From NCBI RefSeq assembly GCF_003402975.1, contig NZ_QURB01000008.1, positions 62,001 to 126,000 on the forward strand: a stretch of 64,000 nucleotides of DNA, written 5' to 3'. The number at the start of each line of letters is the position of its first letter. Position 1 is the first letter of the stretch. Source of the DNA: Brumimicrobium aurantiacum (GTDB taxonomy: Bacteria; Bacteroidota; Bacteroidia; Flavobacteriales_D; Crocinitomicaceae). Below the pieces are notes generated by a model that was not told the origin of the DNA, made no database searches, and saw only the letters and a program-made list of their open reading frames with translations. This document shows, one piece after another, positions 3,134 through 49,754 of this stretch. The position numbers and the translations under genes are program-made.

Positions 3134-3250
3134 GTGGATGCAGTTTGGATAAATATACCGTTAATAATAAATTAATATAGCCTTAATATTGGTGATGTTT
3201 TGTTAACCTAAGAGTAAAGTTGGAATGGTAATTCAATTGAATAAGCTGTA

Positions 3251-3258
3251 TAACTTTG
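3251..3258 (+). promoter_or_regulatory. -7 box (TAACTTTG) for the response regulator gene
   Basis: Exact TAnnTTTG match. It lies 6 bases before the ATG at 3265 and 18 bases before the ATG at 3277, which favours 3277 as the start, given the 20-base spacing seen at metF and asnS. No clear -33 element is visible. Confidence 0.45.
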
Positions 3259-3276
3259 TCAGAAATGATAAACAAA

Positions 3277-3954
3277 ATGAATAAAAAAGCAACAATTTTA
3301 TTTGCAGATGATGATCCAGATATCCTTGAAATGATCTCTTATAATTTAGAGAGAGAAGGATATACAATTCATACTGCTGTCAACGGAGAGGAAGCTGTTG
3401 AATTAAGTGAAAAAGTTAATCCAGACCTAATTCTCTTGGATGTAATGATGCCAAAAATGGATGGTGTTCAAGTTTGTGAAGCAATTCGTTCAAATGGAAA
3501 AGAAGTGCAGCCAATTATTGCGTTCTTAACTTCAAGAGCTGAAGATTATTCTCAAATTGCTGGATTTAACGCTGGAGGAGATGATTATATCAATAAACCA
3601 ATTCGTCCAAAAGTGTTAATTAGTAGAATCGAAGCCTTGTTGAGAAGAGCAGGGTCTAACATTGTAAAAGAAGAGGTGAATGAAGATTTAGTCTTAGATG
3701 TTAACCGATACTTACTATTGTTTAAAGGAGAAGAGTTATATTTACCAAAGAAAGAATTCGAATTGCTTTCATTTCTTATGAAAAAACCTGGAAATGTTTC
3801 AAACAGAGACCAGATTTTGGCGGAAGTTTGGGGTGACGATACCATTGTAGGTGAAAGAACTGTTGATGTACATATCCGAAAATTACGTGAGAAAATTGGA
3901 GATGAATACATTCGTACAATTAAAGGAGTTGGATATACTTTTAAAGCTTCATGA
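3277..3954 (+). CDS. PhoB-like response regulator (receiver + winged-helix DNA-binding domain)
   Basis: Receiver domain at about residues 5-120: acidic pocket DDD at 11-13, phospho-acceptor Asp55 in LLDVMMP, Thr/Ser at 85-86 and Lys107 in the NKP turn. An OmpR/PhoB-type winged helix follows (LPKKEFELLSFL, GERTVDVHIRKLREKIG). It is a two-component transcription regulator, and its kinase overlaps it by 4 bases. In-frame alternatives at TTG 3256 and ATG 3265 exist; 3277 is preferred because the product then begins MNKKATILFADDD and leaves room for a leader after the -7 box. The phosphate assignment rests on the neighbours (porin O/P, Na/Pi symporter). Confidence 0.88.
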   Translation: MNKKATILFADDDPDILEMISYNLEREGYTIHTAVNGEEAVELSEKVNPDLILLDVMMPKMDGVQVCEAIRSNGKEVQPIIAFLTSRAEDYSQIAGFNAGGDDYINKPIRPKVLISRIEALLRRAGSNIVKEEVNEDLVLDVNRYLLLFKGEELYLPKKEFELLSFLMKKPGNVSNRDQILAEVWGDDTIVGERTVDVHIRKLREKIGDEYIRTIKGVGYTFKAS

Positions 3955-5000
3955 AGAACATAAAACCAATTCATATTATATTTATTAGTACAGCATTGCA
4001 TGTTGGTATGCTTTTGCTGTTACTCGTATTATATCGACTTTTTATTGATTTTTTATCCTTAGAAATGATTTTAAGTATTACGCTTCTTGGAGGAGTGTTT
4101 TCTTTTATCATCATTTACTTTGTGTTTAAAAAGTTTATTCAAGAAAGGCTCGATTTGATTTTTCGTGTGATATCTAAAGGTTCTAATTTCAATGCAACTC
4201 AGCAAAGGGTAGATTTGAAGGAGGATGTGATTGGATCTGCGGTAAAAGCATCTCTTAGCTGGGCAAATGAAAGAAAAAGTGAAATCGCTAAACTGAAAGA
4301 ACAAGCAACTTTCAGAAGAGAGTTTTTAGGAAATCTTGCTCATGAATTGAAAACGCCTGTTTTTAGTATTCAAGGGTATATTTTAACTTTATTGGAAGGC
4401 GGTTTAGAGGATGAAAAAGTGAATCGAAAGTTTCTCGAACGTGCCGCTTTTTCTACTGAAAGAATGGCGGAAATTTTAGAAGATCTCGATCAAATTATGA
4501 ATTTGGAGGTGAATAATGTAACTATTAAGAATACATCTTTTAATATAGTAGAGTTAACAAAAGACATTATTCTTTCTCTAGAAGAGTCAAGCATAGAGAA
4601 AAAGGTTAAGGTTTCAATGGCAAAGAAATATGAGCCTATTTATGTCAATGCCGATAAGTCGAAAATTGCACAAGTTCTTACCAATCTAATTGCCAATTCA
4701 ATAAATTATTCTGTTGAAAACGGTTCAACAACAATTCGTTTTTACCCGATTAATGATACGATTATGACCGAAATTTCGGATGATGGAATTGGAATTGAGG
4801 AAAAAAACATTCCACGTCTTTTTGAAAGATTCTACAGGGTGGAGCAAAGTAGAAATAGAAATGAAGGAGGTTCAGGTTTGGGGCTTGCAATTTGTAAGCA
4901 TATCGTTGAAGCTCACGGTGAAAATATTAATGTTAAAAGTGAACTTGGAGTAGGAAGTACCTTTACTTTCTCGCTCAAAAAAAGCAATAAGCCTAAATAA
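3951..5000 (+). CDS. PhoR-like membrane sensor histidine kinase
   Basis: 349 residues with two membrane helices near the N-terminus (about 8-30 and 38-60) and almost no periplasmic segment between them. The kinase core holds the H-box HELKTP with His131, N-box Asn249 (LIANSINYS), G1 box DDGIG at 277-281, and GSGLGL at 307-312. It should phosphorylate the regulator encoded just upstream; the genes overlap by ATGA and are surely co-transcribed. The lack of a large sensor domain resembles PhoR kinases that sense through partner proteins, and PhoU-type input from the symporter is a possibility (inference). Confidence 0.87.
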   Translation: MKNIKPIHIIFISTALHVGMLLLLLVLYRLFIDFLSLEMILSITLLGGVFSFIIIYFVFKKFIQERLDLIFRVISKGSNFNATQQRVDLKEDVIGSAVKASLSWANERKSEIAKLKEQATFRREFLGNLAHELKTPVFSIQGYILTLLEGGLEDEKVNRKFLERAAFSTERMAEILEDLDQIMNLEVNNVTIKNTSFNIVELTKDIILSLEESSIEKKVKVSMAKKYEPIYVNADKSKIAQVLTNLIANSINYSVENGSTTIRFYPINDTIMTEISDDGIGIEEKNIPRLFERFYRVEQSRNRNEGGSGLGLAICKHIVEAHGENINVKSELGVGSTFTFSLKKSNKPK

Positions 5001-14504: not shown

Positions 14505-14564
14505 TCGGTATAGATTTTTTTGGTGGTCTTATTTAAGGTAGTGAAAATAAATGAATAATTAAAA

Positions 14565-14632
14565 ACTAAAAATGAAAAATGTGAGTTCTACGAAATTTTT
14601 CACTTTTCATTGATAATTTTTCATTTTCTAAT
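14565..14632. repeat. AT-rich hairpin element (AATGAAAAA type) between rnhA and recJ
   Basis: AATGAAAAATGTGA (from 14571) can pair, with a small bulge, with TCACTTTTCATT (14600-14611). The wording matches elements at 22101, 26229, 28737, 47489 and 49110, which all combine AATGAAAAA and TTTTTCATT arms at gene boundaries. It overlaps the last codons of rnhA. Confidence 0.5.
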
Positions 14633-26228: not shown

Positions 26229-26274
26229 AATGAAAAACTAAAATCCGATACCTAACGGATTTTAGTTTTTCATT
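26229..26274. repeat. Perfect 19-bp inverted repeat hairpin after the esterase gene
   Basis: AATGAAAAACTAAAATCCG (26229-26247) pairs perfectly with CGGATTTTAGTTTTTCATT (26256-26274) across an 8-base loop. The right half recurs at 22101-22133 and in part at 28788. It sits 45 bases after the esterase stop and could end transcription, although no T-run follows the stem. Confidence 0.8.
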
Positions 26275-26311
26275 TATATCTTCGTTAGAGAATCCGTACC
26301 CTCCAGGTTCC
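26261..26311 (+). repeat. 51-bp dispersed repeat, copy 1
   Basis: About 45 of 51 bases match 28788-28838 (hand alignment). It overlaps the right arm of the preceding hairpin and ends at CTCCAGGTTCC. The following bases to 26501 hold no gene and nothing else that I recognise. Confidence 0.7.
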
Positions 26312-26501
26312 ATCGCAACTTAAATATTCGTTAACCAGTAGTTATCGGATGAAGGTGTATCGAGAAGCAGTGCGATCCAATAAATTCCTACCTCGACTAT
26401 ATAATCTACGTATTAATGCAAGTGGATGACTTTTAACAACTTAAAATTTGGCTATTGCTAATTTATTCCTAATTTAGTACATAATTTTAACACTATTAAT
26501 T

Positions 26502-28736: not shown

Positions 28737-28791
28737 TGAAAGTGAAAAGTGAAAAATTGAATTTTACCGAATTTTTCACTTTTCATTTTTA
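28737..28791. terminator. Long hairpin, probable bidirectional terminator
   Basis: Arms 28737-28758 and 28770-28791 pair over 22 positions with about two G-T wobbles; the inner 14 bp (AAAAGTGAAAAATT) are perfect. It lies between the convergent T9SS gene and the TonB receptor gene and belongs to the dispersed AATGAAAAA/TTTTTCATT family. Confidence 0.65.
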
Positions 28792-28838
28792 GTTTTTCAT
28801 TTATATCTTCGTAAGAGAGTCCGCATTCTCCAGGTCCC
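28788..28838 (+). repeat. 51-bp dispersed repeat, copy 2
   Basis: Partner of 26261-26311, with the same orientation and position relative to a hairpin, ending CTCCAGGTCCC. It stops 20 bases before the 3' end of the TonB receptor gene. Confidence 0.7.
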
Positions 28839-28857
28839 AAAACATGACAAAAATTCA

Positions 28858-31299
28858 TTATTTCCTTCTTTTAGATAAACTAAAATCAACCTTATAATAG
28901 AATATAGGTAAAAATCCGAGTTGATAACGTTCCGCTATTGGTTCAGCAGATGGATCTGTTAAACTTGGTGCATAGCTCAAGGCCAAAATATTCTCTGTAT
29001 TTAAAATGTTCACCAAATCCAATCCTATTTCATGGGTCAATTTATCCGTATTCAATACATAGGTAACTTTTAAATCTAAACGGAAGTAATCCTTAAACTG
29101 TCGGGTGTTGAACAATGAATCTTTAAACACCAATTCGTTGTTGATTTGTGTTTGTGCAACATCAACATATCCATATCTTCTTCCTCCAGCAGCAGTAACT
29201 TTAAATCCTGCCGAAATTTTGTTTCTGTCGTTGATTTTAATCTCTTTACCAGCTAAGAAATTTACAGCGTAATTTCCGTTAAAGTCAGTATTTCGCTCAA
29301 TTCCGTCACTTCCTTTATACTTTGATTCGAAAAGTGAACCCGTAGCCATAAAGTAGAATGACTTATTGAAGAATTTTTGCACGGTTAATTCCACACCGTA
29401 GTTTTCTCCTGTTCCTTCATTAACGAGTTCGTCTGGGAAAAAACGTTGGAAACCTGATCCTTGATTAATCAAACTGAACGAAGAAGAATAAATGTCAACT
29501 GGAATGTTGTATAAATACTGGTAATATACTTCTGATTTAATAGATAGGTTATTCTTGAAGCTTTTCTGATATCCAAGCGCACTATGGAAACTACGCGTAA
29601 AGTCCATGTCTTCATTAAATCGTTGCGTGTTTCCTGTTAAATCGGTTTGCTGATAAGTATATTGGTAGGTAGGTTGCATTTGTGAGTGCATTCCTGCTCC
29701 AGCGCTCACTTGATTTCCGTTTTTCATGCGCCATTGCCAACCAATTCGTGGTTCAGCATAACTCCAACTGTCGCTCATTGAGAAGTATTGACTGTGAATA
29801 CCAGCCGTGAAATCCATTTTCTCATTTACCCTCCATTTATATTGAACAAAAGGTTGAACAAGCATACTAAAACCTTCGTAATCATGACGGGTTTGAAATG
29901 CTGTGTGCGAAACATCCAAAGCAGAGTCATTATTTTTAATATAATATCCATCAAGGTTTATTCCCGCTCGAATAATGTTACGGGTATTAATTTTATGATT
30001 TAAACTCGCAAAAAGCGCTGTTTTATAGGTTTGAAATTTGTAACCCATCAATTGGTAGATCGAATCAGTTCTTATTTGAAACGTTTCCTCTCCATCTACA
30101 ACACTAGTGTCTAAGCTTCTTTCAAGGTAGTCATGTCTTGATTTTTGCTGATCAAAACTTTGTGCTAGCGTTGCTTTGAAAAATGTGCTTTTCGAAATTG
30201 GTTTTTTATAAGTTAAACCTACAGTTGCCATTGCTGTTCCAAAATATTGGTCTCTATCTCCTTCTCCAAAAGCTTCCTCGGAAACCTCTGTTTGTTCGGA
30301 GATTTTAATGGCAATATCTGAAGCACCGCCAATTCCAAAAACGCCTAAGTTTCCACCATTTTTTAATGGAAAAGAAAACTTAAATGCACCATCTCCATAG
30401 GTCGGAACGGCATCTGTTCCAATTGTGATATTCATGGCTTGGAAAATACTCAAGGTACTGTAACGTCCCATTACTAAGTAACTAGACCTTTTGTCTTTAT
30501 TGATTGGACCTTCTGCTAATACTTCTGTTCCTAAAAACCCAAATTGTCCTGTAAATTCATGCTTTTCTGTATTTCCATTTCTCAATTTTAAATCAAAAAC
30601 TCCTGAAATCGAATTACCATAATCAGCTGGAAATGCCGACATAAAAAAGTCTGAATTGGCTAATATTTTATTGTTTAGAATCGCCACCGGACCTCCTGTT
30701 GAACCCGATGTAGCAAAGTGATTTGGATTGGGTAAATCTATTCCTTCCACCTTCCATAACAATCCAATCGGAGAGTTTCCTCGTACAACAATGTCATTTC
30801 GTGAATCATCTGCTCCTTGAACTCCAGCAAAATTACTCGCCATACGCGCGGGATCACCTCGAGAACCTGCATATCGATTGGTTTCTTCAACGCTAAATTG
30901 ACGTGCTGAAATAGTGGCCATTTCATTGTTGATTCTTCCGGCTTTGTTTCCAACAATATTGACCTCTTCAGTAGTTTGAATATTCTCGTGAAGCTTAATG
31001 TTCACAATGCTTTCACGTCCTGAGTTTACAGTCACAGTCGTACTGCTTGTTTTATAAGAAGTATAAGTTGCTGTTAATTGATATTTTCCAATTGGCACAT
31101 CTTTAAAGCTAAATCTTCCATCAAGGTCAGTCATGTTTCTCAAAACAACTGTAGAGTCTGAAGAAACCAAAGAAAGTTTGGATCCTATTAATGGATATTG
31201 TGATTCAGAATCCACAACAGTTCCTTTAACTGTTTGAGATATTTGACTAAGTAGGGGCAATGAGATTAAACAAAAAACTAGACTTAAATACTTATACAT
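28858..31299 (-). CDS. TonB-dependent receptor with carboxypeptidase-like N-domain
   Basis: 813 residues. A signal peptide is followed by a carboxypeptidase regulatory-like domain (about 20-105: VKGTVVDSESQYPLIG, GRFSFKDVPIGKYQL), a plug domain (about 115-230) and a 22-strand-type barrel ending YYKVDFSLSKRRK. The plug starts with RINNEMATISARQFSVEET and has ADDSRNDIVVRGNSPIGLLW. It takes up an unknown large or chelated substrate using TonB energy. The C-terminus carries a few extra basic residues after the last strand. No SusD partner is adjacent, so it is not a SusCD pair. Confidence 0.88.
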   Translation of the reverse strand: MYKYLSLVFCLISLPLLSQISQTVKGTVVDSESQYPLIGSKLSLVSSDSTVVLRNMTDLDGRFSFKDVPIGKYQLTATYTSYKTSSTTVTVNSGRESIVNIKLHENIQTTEEVNIVGNKAGRINNEMATISARQFSVEETNRYAGSRGDPARMASNFAGVQGADDSRNDIVVRGNSPIGLLWKVEGIDLPNPNHFATSGSTGGPVAILNNKILANSDFFMSAFPADYGNSISGVFDLKLRNGNTEKHEFTGQFGFLGTEVLAEGPINKDKRSSYLVMGRYSTLSIFQAMNITIGTDAVPTYGDGAFKFSFPLKNGGNLGVFGIGGASDIAIKISEQTEVSEEAFGEGDRDQYFGTAMATVGLTYKKPISKSTFFKATLAQSFDQQKSRHDYLERSLDTSVVDGEETFQIRTDSIYQLMGYKFQTYKTALFASLNHKINTRNIIRAGINLDGYYIKNNDSALDVSHTAFQTRHDYEGFSMLVQPFVQYKWRVNEKMDFTAGIHSQYFSMSDSWSYAEPRIGWQWRMKNGNQVSAGAGMHSQMQPTYQYTYQQTDLTGNTQRFNEDMDFTRSFHSALGYQKSFKNNLSIKSEVYYQYLYNIPVDIYSSSFSLINQGSGFQRFFPDELVNEGTGENYGVELTVQKFFNKSFYFMATGSLFESKYKGSDGIERNTDFNGNYAVNFLAGKEIKINDRNKISAGFKVTAAGGRRYGYVDVAQTQINNELVFKDSLFNTRQFKDYFRLDLKVTYVLNTDKLTHEIGLDLVNILNTENILALSYAPSLTDPSAEPIAERYQLGFLPIFYYKVDFSLSKRRK

Positions 31300-45947: not shown

Positions 45948-46898
45948 ATGAAGGTAATAGATCATATAAACGAAGCAAAGGATACGCTCTTCTCCTTTGA
46001 AATTCTTCCTCCGTTAAAAGGGAAGAGTATTCAGTCAATCTATAATGGTATAGATCCTTTAATGGAGTTTAAACCAAAGTTTATCAATGTTACATATCAC
46101 CGCGAGGAGTTTGTTTATAAAGAACGTGATAAAGGTTTACTCGAAAAGGTGTCCATTAGGAAAAGACCAGGAACAGTTGGAATCTGTGCTGCAATTATGA
46201 ATAAATACCACGTTGATGCGGTTCCTCATTTAATTTGTGGAGGATTTAGTAAAGAAGACACTGAGAATGCATTAATTGATTTACAATTTTTAGGTATTGA
46301 TAATGTTTTGGCGCTTCGAGGAGACCCTATCAAAACTGAGGTTACTTTCAAGCCAGCAGTAAAAGGACATAAATATGCCGTTGAGTTGATTGAACAAATT
46401 CAAAACATGAATAAGGGGCAATACACAATGGACGAAATTCAGTTAGAACCGACTGATTTTTGTGTTGGCGCTGCCGGTTATCCCGAAAAACATTTCGAGG
46501 CAATGAATATGGCAACAGATTTGCAATACTTAAAACAAAAAGTAGATATGGGTGCTGATTATATCGTAACTCAATTGTTTTATGATAACCAAAAGTACTT
46601 TGATTTTGTAAAGAAATGTCGTGAGGTTGGTATTAATGTTCCAATTATTCCAGGTTTAAAACCAATTTCTAATTTAAGACATATTTCTTTCTTGCCGAAA
46701 TTCTTCCATATTGATTTACCGACAGAATTGTCTTCAGAATTGCTGAAATGTAAAACGAATGAAGAAGTTAAACAGGTGGGGATTGAATGGGGAATTCAGC
46801 AATCAAAAGAGTTGAAAGCAGCTGGCGTACCGTGTATCCATTATTATACGATGACTAATTCATCTGAGGTGAAACAAATTGCTTCAGAATTATTTTAA
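45948..46898 (+). CDS. metF: Methylenetetrahydrofolate reductase MetF
   Basis: 316 residues from the ATG at 45948. TIM-barrel FAD enzyme: FSFEILPPLKG at the N-terminus, VLALRGDP, CVGAAGYPEKHFEA, QLFYDNQKYFDFV, and a late IHYYTMTNSSEV segment. It reduces 5,10-methylene-THF to 5-methyl-THF for methionine synthesis, linking to the SAM cycle enzyme AhcY encoded further on. The next gene starts 13 bases after its stop. Confidence 0.94.
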   Translation: MKVIDHINEAKDTLFSFEILPPLKGKSIQSIYNGIDPLMEFKPKFINVTYHREEFVYKERDKGLLEKVSIRKRPGTVGICAAIMNKYHVDAVPHLICGGFSKEDTENALIDLQFLGIDNVLALRGDPIKTEVTFKPAVKGHKYAVELIEQIQNMNKGQYTMDEIQLEPTDFCVGAAGYPEKHFEAMNMATDLQYLKQKVDMGADYIVTQLFYDNQKYFDFVKKCREVGINVPIIPGLKPISNLRHISFLPKFFHIDLPTELSSELLKCKTNEEVKQVGIEWGIQQSKELKAAGVPCIHYYTMTNSSEVKQIASELF

Positions 46899-46911
46899 AA
46901 TATTAAACAAC

Positions 46912-47457
46912 ATGAAAAATCTATTTTTAACACTTAGCTCTGTTTTATTGATCTCTTGTTTTTCTTTCGCTCAAAATGTGGAAGATTTAAACTTGAAGAA
47001 CGTTTTGGTGGTTGGACAGCAAGATGAATTGTCTGATCAATATACTTTAGAAGTCGGTTTGCTTCAATTATTTAATCAGTATGGTATAAAATCAAAAGCA
47101 TCTTTAAATGTTGTGAAACAAAGAGGTTCTGATACAACTTTGGTGCAAGATTCAATTCGAAAAGCACTTGAAGAAGAAGGTTTCGATACTTACTTACTTG
47201 TTTCTATTCGTGGATATAATAACCGATTTAGACCTTCAGAGAATATTAAATCAATTAAAGAAGAGTTAAGTGCTGGGCATTTATATCCTTTATATAGAGA
47301 AAGTGCTGCAAATGTGACTTTCACTTTTACTTTTTACAGAGATATGAAGCCAGTTCATTATGAAATGATCCGCACAGGAACCGTAGGTTCAAAAGATGCC
47401 GTAATGAAGAAGCTACTGAAGAAAGTGGAGAAACGCTTGAAGAAGGATTGGATGTAG
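46912..47457 (+). CDS. Small secreted or lipid-anchored protein, function unknown
   Basis: 181 residues from the ATG at 46912. N-terminus MKNLFLTLSSVLLISCFSF followed by AQ: a signal peptide whose cleavage could be at ISC (lipobox) or after FAQ. The mature part alternates strands and helices (VLVVGQQDELSDQYTLEVGL, ALEEEGFDTYLLVSIRGYN, ANVTFTFTFYRD) and ends in a basic helix (MKKLLKKVEKRLKKDW). I do not recognise a family; the shape resembles small periplasmic proteins that have an N-terminal LVV-type strand (DUF4136-like), but I cannot confirm it. Possibly co-transcribed with metF. Confidence 0.6.
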   Translation: MKNLFLTLSSVLLISCFSFAQNVEDLNLKNVLVVGQQDELSDQYTLEVGLLQLFNQYGIKSKASLNVVKQRGSDTTLVQDSIRKALEEEGFDTYLLVSIRGYNNRFRPSENIKSIKEELSAGHLYPLYRESAANVTFTFTFYRDMKPVHYEMIRTGTVGSKDAVMKKLLKKVEKRLKKDWM

Positions 47458-47488
47458 GTTAAATGGGATTAATGAAAAATGATCAATG

Positions 47489-47527
47489 AAAAATGCAAAA
47501 TTCGCTTGAACTGAATTTTGCATTTTT
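47489..47527. terminator. Strong hairpin terminator after the small secreted-protein gene
   Basis: AAAAATGCAAAATTC (47489-47503) and GAATTTTGCATTTTT (47513-47527) are perfect 15-bp arms around a 9-base loop, ending in T5. It directly abuts the 133-bp repeat that begins at 47526. Confidence 0.8.
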
Positions 47528-47658
47528 AGTTTTGCATTCAATCTGAAAACTTTCGAATCGTAATTAATTTTTGTTTAAGATTTCTCCAACATTTCGATGG
47601 AACGTAGTGACTGAGAAATCTGATTCCAATTCGAAAGTTAACTAATTCGTAATTATTT
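47526..47658 (+). repeat. 133-bp direct repeat, copy 1
   Basis: By reading the two strings base by base it is identical to 48939-49071. Inside are two nested inverted repeats: AACTTTCGAAT (47548-47558) with ATTCGAAAGTT (47629-47639), and AGATTTCTC (47578-47586) with GAGAAATCT (47613-47621). After its end, TTTCTCCAACATTTC reappears at 47662-47676, so a partial third copy may follow. The stretch 47677-47911 shows no gene. Confidence 0.9.
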
Positions 47659-47911
47659 AGCTTTCTCCAACATTTCATTTAGTTCTAAATCCGCGTTCCA
47701 TTACAGCGACAGTTTTGAGATATTAAGTATGCAAAAATAAAACCGAAGGTATCCGAATGAAGTACTGAAATCAATGCAATTATGTTTGAACTTGTATAAG
47801 AGAATGATTCTTAATTGTGAAAATCATGTCATTTTATTTTGACCTATATTATAAATGATTGATTTTTACAGGTAGTACAATTTTATATGTTTAATAAAAA
47901 ACGCAACTATT

Positions 47912-48883
47912 ATGAATACTAACAAAATATTAATTTGGATTTTAGCTATTATTAATGCGTTTTCAATCAGTGCACAAAGTGATAGTATTTTTACTAACCT
48001 CACAAGTTATAAAGCTGAAATTTGCACTCATGCATGGGATTTTGAAGGCCTTAATCAATTTGAACATTTAACAGTGTTTTCGGATGACCCTATCTCTGAT
48101 ACTTTAAGAGTAAAAGATGTAGCAGGGAATGTTTTCGCTAATTTATGGATAGATGGTCGAAAAACTTGGTTGAGAGTAAATTCAAATAATCTTACAATAG
48201 CCTCTCAATTTGTTTTCTTTCCTGATTTTAATAATCCTTCAGGTTATCCACTTGATGAATACTTTCTTTTATATGATTTTGATGTACTTGACACGGTTGT
48301 TGTTGGAGATACTGTCTCTTTTACGAATTCATCAAAAAATGTGACCTTTTCAATTGCTGAAATTGATACAATTCAAATTAACAATGTTGACAAGGTTAGG
48401 TATTCGATTCATCCTATGGATGACCAATGGATAGATTATCTAATAGAAGGAATAGGTGGATTGCATCCTTTTACTCCTATTTTATATTACGGTCTTTTCG
48501 GGCTTTGTCCTTGTGAATATGAAGCAACATATACTAGTCAAACAGATACGTTAATTTTAAGAGACACAATGGTTTTTGGGGGAGATTCTAATTCTCAATT
48601 TTGTCAAACAGCAAGTTTGATTAAAAATGAAAAAAATCCGAATATTAAAATTTATCCTAACCCCCTAACAGGAAATACTTTTACAATTCAAGCTGATGGA
48701 ATTGCGAGAATTGATGAAGTTAAACTTTATGATAATCTGGGTAAAGAAATAGAGGTAATGTATTCGATTATTGAAAACACAAAAAGTTGTACAGTTTCAA
48801 CACCTAATTTATCAAAAGGGTTTTATACTGTTGAAGTAGTCAGTGAAACGAAACATTACAGACAGAAAGTAATTGTTCGATAG
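47912..48883 (+). CDS. T9SS type A sorting domain protein, function unknown
   Basis: 323 residues: a signal peptide (ILIWILAIINAFSISAQ), an unrecognised strand-rich domain of about 200 residues (FEHLTVFSDDPISDTLRV, IDYLIEGIGGLHPF, LFGLCPCEYEATY), and a T9SS sorting domain at about 250-323 (IKIYPNPLTGNTF, VKLYDNLGKEIEV, LSKGFYTVEVVSE, ending QKVIVR). It is secreted by T9SS. The gene is bracketed on both sides by the exact 133-bp repeat. Confidence 0.8.
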   Translation: MNTNKILIWILAIINAFSISAQSDSIFTNLTSYKAEICTHAWDFEGLNQFEHLTVFSDDPISDTLRVKDVAGNVFANLWIDGRKTWLRVNSNNLTIASQFVFFPDFNNPSGYPLDEYFLLYDFDVLDTVVVGDTVSFTNSSKNVTFSIAEIDTIQINNVDKVRYSIHPMDDQWIDYLIEGIGGLHPFTPILYYGLFGLCPCEYEATYTSQTDTLILRDTMVFGGDSNSQFCQTASLIKNEKNPNIKIYPNPLTGNTFTIQADGIARIDEVKLYDNLGKEIEVMYSIIENTKSCTVSTPNLSKGFYTVEVVSETKHYRQKVIVR

Positions 48884-48907
48884 TTCTTAAACCAAAAATC
48901 AAATCTT

Positions 48908-48976
48908 ATGAAACTTACAATCTTTTTAATATCTGTAATTAGTTTTGCATTCAATCTGAAAACTTTCGAATCGTAA
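48908..48976 (+). pseudogene. Truncated signal-peptide start interrupted by the 133-bp repeat
   Basis: The ATG at 48908 begins MKLTIFLISVISFAF, a signal-peptide-like start, but at codon 11 the sequence passes into copy 2 of the 133-bp repeat and stops at 48974-48976. It looks like the 5' end of a secreted-protein gene, 24 bases after the preceding stop, that lost its body when the repeat arrived or recombined. Confidence 0.55.
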
Positions 48977-49071
48977 TTAATTTTTGTTTAAGATTTCTCC
49001 AACATTTCGATGGAACGTAGTGACTGAGAAATCTGATTCCAATTCGAAAGTTAACTAATTCGTAATTATTT
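48939..49071 (+). repeat. 133-bp direct repeat, copy 2
   Basis: Identical to 47526-47658, same orientation, 1413 bases apart. It carries the same nested inverted repeats, so its transcript could fold into a two-stem hairpin. It interrupts the truncated frame starting at 48908. Confidence 0.9.
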
Positions 49072-49109
49072 GTCCCGCATTTATTTCAGAGTGAGAAACA
49101 GGATGAGAA

Positions 49110-49165
49110 ATGAAGTGATGAAAACACCCAATTCAACTGAATTTTTCATTCTTCATTTATCATTT
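49110..49165. repeat. AT-rich GAATTTTTCATT element before the ribE stop
   Basis: Contains AACTGAATTTTTCATTCTTCATTTATCATTT-like wording (key words GAATTTTTCATT and TTCATTTATCAT), matching the right halves of the dispersed hairpins. The pairing left arm is weak here. It lies just downstream of the riboflavin synthase gene. Confidence 0.4.
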
Positions 49166-49169
49166 TTAT

Positions 49170-49754
49170 TTATTCTCTCCCTTTAAACATCTTCGCAATA
49201 TACTTTCCTAAAATGTCAAATTCTAAATTTACAAAATCACCTTCTTTCAAGCTGTGAAACTGTGTATGTTCGTATGTGTAAGGAATAATGTGAACTGAAA
49301 ATTGATTTTCTTGTGAGTTTACAACTGTTAGACTTGCGCCATTTACAGTAATCGATCCTTTTTCAACAGTGATGTCTTTTGAGTTGTATTGAAATGTAAA
49401 TATCCAACTACCATCTTTTTCTTCGATGCTTATACATTTTCCAGTAGTGTCAACATGGCCTTGAACAATGTGGCCGTCAAATCGTCCATGAGCTGGCATA
49501 CAACGTTCTAGGTTTACTTTGTCGCCTAATTCCCAGCTACCAAGATCTGTTTTCAAAAGGGTCTCATCAATTGCAGTTACTGTGTATTCGTCTCCTTCAA
49601 TTTTTACAACAGTAAGACAAACTCCATTATGGGCTAAACTTTGGTCGATTTTCAATTCGTCGGTAAAAGGGCATGATAAAGTGAAGTGAATGTTTGTTCC
49701 TTCTTTTTCAATGTTCTTTATTGTTCCTAGACCTTCAACTATACCAGTAAACAT
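49170..49754 (-). CDS. ribE: Riboflavin synthase alpha chain
   Basis: 194 residues with the two lumazine-binding repeats of riboflavin synthase: MFTGIVEGLGTI and NGVCLTVV in the first half, GHIVQGHVDTTG, GSITVNGASLTVV and a terminal VNLEFDILGKYI in the second. It dismutates two 6,7-dimethyl-8-ribityllumazine molecules to riboflavin. It lies 2 bases after panC on the same strand, so they form an operon; panD, often near panC in this phylum, is not here. Confidence 0.93.
   Translation of the reverse strand: MFTGIVEGLGTIKNIEKEGTNIHFTLSCPFTDELKIDQSLAHNGVCLTVVKIEGDEYTVTAIDETLLKTDLGSWELGDKVNLERCMPAHGRFDGHIVQGHVDTTGKCISIEEKDGSWIFTFQYNSKDITVEKGSITVNGASLTVVNSQENQFSVHIIPYTYEHTQFHSLKEGDFVNLEFDILGKYIAKMFKGRE

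Follow-up and report, generated by a model that had tools for sequence, protein, structure and literature searches.

An exact 133-bp repeat pair around a T9SS gene in Brumimicrobium aurantiacum probably reflects local copying of an intergenic segment with a REP-like core

The window analysed here, a 64-kb stretch of the Brumimicrobium aurantiacum genome, contains a gene for a T9SS-sorted protein with the same intergenic sequence on either side, which raises the question of how an exact repeat came to enclose a single gene. A preliminary description had reported this 133-bp repeat with diverging flanks, two nested inverted repeats (11 bp and 9 bp) in each copy and zero transposase genes inside the cassette. 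Both positions, the identity over 133 bp and the arms in both copies are confirmed, the flanks diverge on all four sides, and the cassette indeed encodes no transposase. The copies, spaced by 1413 nt, are the sole long exact repeat within the window. The locus is laid out as follows.

46879-47457, plus strand: orf192, the upstream neighbour, without a Pfam match and conserved in the genus
47526-47658, plus strand: copy 1 of the exact 133-bp direct repeat, between orf192 and the T9SS gene
47548-47558, plus strand: left outer 11-bp inverted-repeat arm of copy 1, AACTTTCGAAT, partner of 47629-47639
47629-47639, plus strand: right outer 11-bp inverted-repeat arm of copy 1, ATTCGAAAGTT, partner of 47548-47558
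47656-47676, plus strand: decayed third trace of the same element, abutting copy 1, 90% over 21 nt, repeat family D2
47912-48883, plus strand: the enclosed gene for a T9SS-sorted protein of 323 aa (Por_Secre_tail PF18962, E 2.1e-10)
48908-48961, plus strand: what remains of the start of a lost second gene (MKLTIFLISVISFAFNLK), homologous to the first part of a 190-aa ORF of B. oceani
48939-49071, plus strand: copy 2 of the exact 133-bp direct repeat, between the T9SS gene and the convergent ribE
49170-49754, minus strand: ribE, riboflavin synthase (Lum_binding), the convergent downstream neighbour

We favour, with a probability of about 0.72, the reading that the pair is an intergenic mosaic with a REP core that was copied once, locally, by template switching or conversion around a T9SS gene that was already there.

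Inside the outer arms of copy 1 lies a pair of 9-bp arms (AGATTTCTC at 47578-47586 and GAGAAATCT at 47613-47621), and copy 2 has identical nested 11-bp and 9-bp arms. These had been expected to fold into a double-stem hairpin. The arms exist in the sequence, but the predicted fold of the 133-mer does not exceed expectation either as RNA (z -1.6; 14 of 200 shuffles equally good) or as DNA (z -2.0), so that the hairpin is real as sequence and weak as structure. An Rfam search of 47400-49200 gave only chance miRNA matches with scores below gathering.

When the 133-mer was searched against the genome, we recovered the two copies together with dispersed partial matches, the best of which are to a 44-bp core. 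Thus it is the core alone, and not the entire 133-bp unit, that forms a repeated element; the proposal that the unit belongs to a dispersed family largely holds for the core, but the full 133-mer occurs only at its own locus. At the places found by this search the family elements are mostly exactly 127 bp long, with the layout AGATTTCTCCAGCAT..ATGCTG TTCGAAATG ... TCGTCGCGC nnn GCGCGACGA ... GTCATTTCGATGGAACGCAGTGACTGAGAAATCT. Each consists of two REP-like units (GTCATTTCGA...GAGAAATCT) placed head to head with a strong hairpin in the centre, where TCGTCGCGC/GCGCGACGA form the spacer stem. The self-complementarity of the 127-mer is strong and gives a long hairpin (z -5.5; 0 of 200 shuffles). 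A covariance model of the element (R1), trained on seven copies with those of the window left out, identifies nine copies of 102-127 nt in the B. aurantiacum genome and also both window cores; judging by the searches on which the counts rest, full or near-full 127-bp copies elsewhere in the genome number at least 9. The window cores are:

47578-47621, plus strand: 44-bp core of copy 1, a REP-like dimer with an 83-bp internal deletion (R1, E 2.1e-5)
48991-49034, plus strand: 44-bp core of copy 2, a REP-like dimer with an 83-bp internal deletion (R1, E 2.1e-5)

Once exactly 83 bp are removed from the full element, four full copies agree with the window core at 41-42 of 44 bases, and the junction lies in a CATT repeat. 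This identifies the core as a deletion form of the dimer; the genome yielded no other short form of this kind. Family members at the 16 places examined are intergenic, save for one overlap with a short ORF, and none of the 16 lies between divergent genes.

The preliminary description had likened the inner words of the repeat to intergenic hairpins of Bacteroidota, and this likeness proved sound in both the genome, where R1 finds dispersed copies, and the phylum. The half-unit GTCATTTCGA N5-22 GAGAAATCT is present in 76 genomes of a sample of 297 across the phylum Bacteroidota, with a maximum of 87 copies, and a reversed control pattern has zero matches in any genome listed from that sample. 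Within Brumimicrobium the window species has 16 half-units; two congeners have a single one each, and the other seven tested have none. At E<=1e-5, the 133-mer search over 40 genomes returned its own genome alone. A model of the full-length dimer gives weak matches only, in just 3 other genomes across the phylum, which indicates that the 127-bp form is species-specific and the single unit widespread. A literature search for the sequence words of the family yielded no relevant match among the 30 papers listed out of 539.

Among known repeats we compared the family with the CGTC REPs. As defined by Di Nocera, De Gregorio and Rocco (2013, PMC3733652), CGTC REPs carry a CGTC (or TGTC/CCTC) tetranucleotide at one end, have a stem of 8-9 bp, a loop of 4-5 nt and a short unpaired tail that is mostly CCA, form mostly head-to-head dimers, often with structured spacers, occur in Bacteroidetes among other phyla and are reported to have no association with transposases. 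The family is similar in that most units carry a CGTC or TGTC tag at one end (23 of 38 distinct units at the sampled loci of the B. aurantiacum genome), complementary AT residues open the stem (ATTTC...GAAAT), and the units occur mostly as head-to-head dimers with a structured spacer, here the 127-bp form. The family is likewise intergenic and without a dedicated transposase. Set against the same definition, it differs in its stems, which by inspection have 5 bp followed by mismatches, or 5+6 bp with an internal loop, and in its tail, which is CT followed by variable bases and not CCA. The two window cores have CAAC in place of the tag and, unlike the CGTC REPs defined there, have lost the spacer and half of the dimer as well. 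Because stem length, loop length and tail depart from the definition, we call the family CGTC-like, which is short of proven membership in the CGTC REPs.

RAYT proteins are thought to move GTAG REPs, and MITEs are moved by a cognate IS. Like GTAG REPs, BIMEs and REPINs, the family consists of short intergenic palindromes in inverted pairs and many copies; unlike them, it has no GTAG/GTGG foot and no adjoining RAYT, the RAYTs of this genome carrying a separate CTACCACGAGA..TCTCGCGGTAG repeat. Like MITEs, it is short and non-coding, with terminal inverted repeats (AGATTTCTC...GAGAAATCT) and internally deleted forms; unlike MITEs, its dispersed copies have no clear target-site duplication, and no cognate IS was found in a search of the Y1 family. 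An alternative that we consider unlikely is transposition of the 133-bp unit, or of its REP core, to the position of copy 1 by a transposase acting in trans (RAYT-like or MITE/IS). The family is dispersed and has expanded in a lineage-specific manner, and TTTAG at 47525-47529 and 47656-47660 is a possible 5-bp flanking duplication that brackets copy 1, with a chance probability of about 5%. Transposition predicts spread, however, and transposition of the whole 133-mer is disfavoured because the 133-mer occurs nowhere else; the edges of the unit also lie well outside the REP core, and by eye no target-site duplication is visible around the other, dispersed copies. The RAYT-type (TnpA-REP) association raised at the outset is not supported. 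The family motif lies within about 1.5 kb of only 2 of 48 Y1 loci, drawn from B. aurantiacum and 12 other motif-rich genomes, which we estimate to be about the chance rate, and the three Y1 transposases of B. aurantiacum itself carry other, unrelated repeats. On these results RAYT is rejected as the mover of the family. In not flanking tyrosine transposase genes beyond background, the family again resembles CGTC REPs as PMC3733652 presents them.

Two RAYT-like genes of this genome (C12:262599 and C12:273976) have their own REP-like flanks, CTACCACGAGA..TCTCGCGGTAG and GCCACGAGC..GCTCGCGGC. At C19:156872 an IS200-type transposase gene is followed by a long array of CAAATCCCGAAGGGATG repeats.

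Returning to local copying as the preferred reading, we identified comparable arrangements elsewhere in the genome. A pair of REP-bearing 98-bp segments (88%) surrounds a single 424-aa gene at C16:347-349 kb. At C1:349-351 kb a pair of 126-bp blocks (96%; positions 1154-1279 and 2023-2148 of the piece C1:348500-352500) and a REP block surround a 156-aa gene, and copy B there is without the central hairpin that copy A has. At C1:477 kb (1551-3395 of C1:475500-480500) a 99-aa GIY-YIG-like gene is present in two tandem copies interleaved with three REP-bearing segments, whose central hairpin, GAAACGAAAGC/GCTTTCGTTTC, is not of the TCGTCGCGC type; unequal recombination within a repeat-gene-repeat cassette would be expected to give this arrangement. 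There are also tandem REP-bearing duplications at C1:471, C12:237 and C1:76 kb. With direct repeats around one gene at two other loci and tandem versions at four, the window case is one of several.

The array at C1:477 kb is a true repeat-gene-repeat-gene-repeat structure in the same genome, and as such lends something to a somewhat less probable alternative, namely tandem duplication of 47659-49071 (gene plus repeat) followed by loss of the first gene copy. Such a history would require a further deletion whose end coincides exactly with the edge of the repeat, and no trace of a second T9SS gene copy is found upstream of copy 1.

The window has other recurring intergenic sequences. A 74-nt direct repeat (80%) at 26260-26333 and 28787-28860 spans three ORFs and shares part of the same AT-rich intergenic words. 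Terminator-like intergenic hairpins of another dispersed type, AATGAAAAATG..CATTTTTCATT, recur at 47478-47538, 14563-14626, 28739-28802 and 49109-49172.

The history of the locus can be read from its congeners. The orf192-ribE spacer is variable across the genus, from about 10-35 bp in most other congeners, through about 325 bp in B. glaciale and about 2.7 kb in B. mesophilum, up to 6.8 kb in B. oceani (C35:9000-22000). In B. oceani the first gene of the interval is an orthologue of the T9SS gene with 75% identity, followed by ORFs of 190, 281 and 1194 aa, and the locus lacks the 133-bp repeat; the B. mesophilum spacer holds an ORF of another kind and a 3' remnant that, on inspection, looks like that of the 1194-aa gene. 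Since the orthologue occupies the same place without repeats, the T9SS gene is older than the repeats, and a mobile gene cassette is rejected. Exact identity of the copies had been taken to imply recent duplication, gene conversion or mobility: it does point to a recent duplication or conversion, but mobility of the gene is not supported. The window species has kept the T9SS gene and, of the next gene, only the start, which ends in copy 2; copy 2 therefore lies on the scar left by the loss of a block of genes.

The congeners appear to have lost the 6.8-kb B. oceani cluster to differing extents. A paralogue of the T9SS gene (about 44-45%) lies at C5:13000-21000, on the reverse strand at about 3165-4600 of that piece, with part of the same REP-like element some 200 bp upstream of it and an apparent remnant of the same second gene downstream.

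An integration scar, in which gene and repeat came in as one and recombined with a repeat that was already present (a cassette-style gain), is very improbable: a Campbell-type insertion at such a repeat would leave repeat-gene-repeat, and the genus is variable at the orf192-ribE spacer, but the repeat-free gene at the same syntenic place in B. oceani largely refutes it, and part of the downstream cluster's first gene survives in the window. Least probable of all is an assembly artefact, for although the assembly is a draft (22 contigs) and the repeat short and exact, both copies are internal to a 206-kb contig, ordinary reads or read pairs would span 133 bp, and all four flanks are different from one another and sensibly anchored by synteny.

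Under local copying, the preferred reading, the parent is a 127-bp element made of a REP unit, a strong central hairpin and an inverted REP unit, from which 83 bp were deleted between short CATT repeats to leave the 44-bp core. A segment carrying this core would then have been duplicated once and locally, so that it came to lie on both sides of the T9SS gene; the most likely mechanism is a switch of replication template or a non-reciprocal conversion, helped by the palindromes and the AT-rich words. The T9SS gene was already in place by then, as part of a larger T9SS-cargo cluster of which the rest was lost in the window species. Neither repeat boundary has long microhomology. In an E. coli study, 90 novel rearrangement junctions were sequenced and 22 of them lay at REP sequences, which was ascribed to secondary structure and template switching (PMC3161906). 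That case is similar in that palindromic REP DNA is the site of rearrangement and template switching is proposed, and differs in that it concerns large amplifications obtained by experiment, against a 133-bp copy deduced here from sequence.

As for direction, copy 1 was probably made from copy 2. Copy 2 begins within the signal-peptide codons of the second gene's remnant; the start of that gene overlaps the first 23 bp of copy 2, and the anchored alignment of these 23 bp to B. oceani gene 2 (p about 0.002) favours copy 2 as the source. Unanchored local similarity between the left edge of copy 2 and the same gene is not significant (p 0.36). On the other hand, copy 1 is similar in its left part to the B. 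mesophilum spacer (p about 0.01-0.05), and this likeness, together with the chance level of the TTTAG repeat given above, makes the direction a lean and not a result.

The outcome is a 1.4-kb direct-repeat cassette, and it is plausible that homologous recombination between its repeats could remove the T9SS gene or give rise to a second copy of it. A wider and rather doubtful extension would be that REP-like dimers with three hairpins, the central one exchangeable, form a superfamily across the Bacteroidota that spreads by replication-linked local copying, with no transposase of its own, and has wrapped single genes in direct repeats many times over; if true, such wrapping creates gene-sized units open to deletion or amplification. 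The family is found in about a quarter of the sampled Bacteroidota genomes at up to tens of copies, with no mover enzyme found. The B. aurantiacum genome offers several recent local copying events, some of them around single genes, and between-strain comparison of such events could show whether palindrome-driven template switching suffices.
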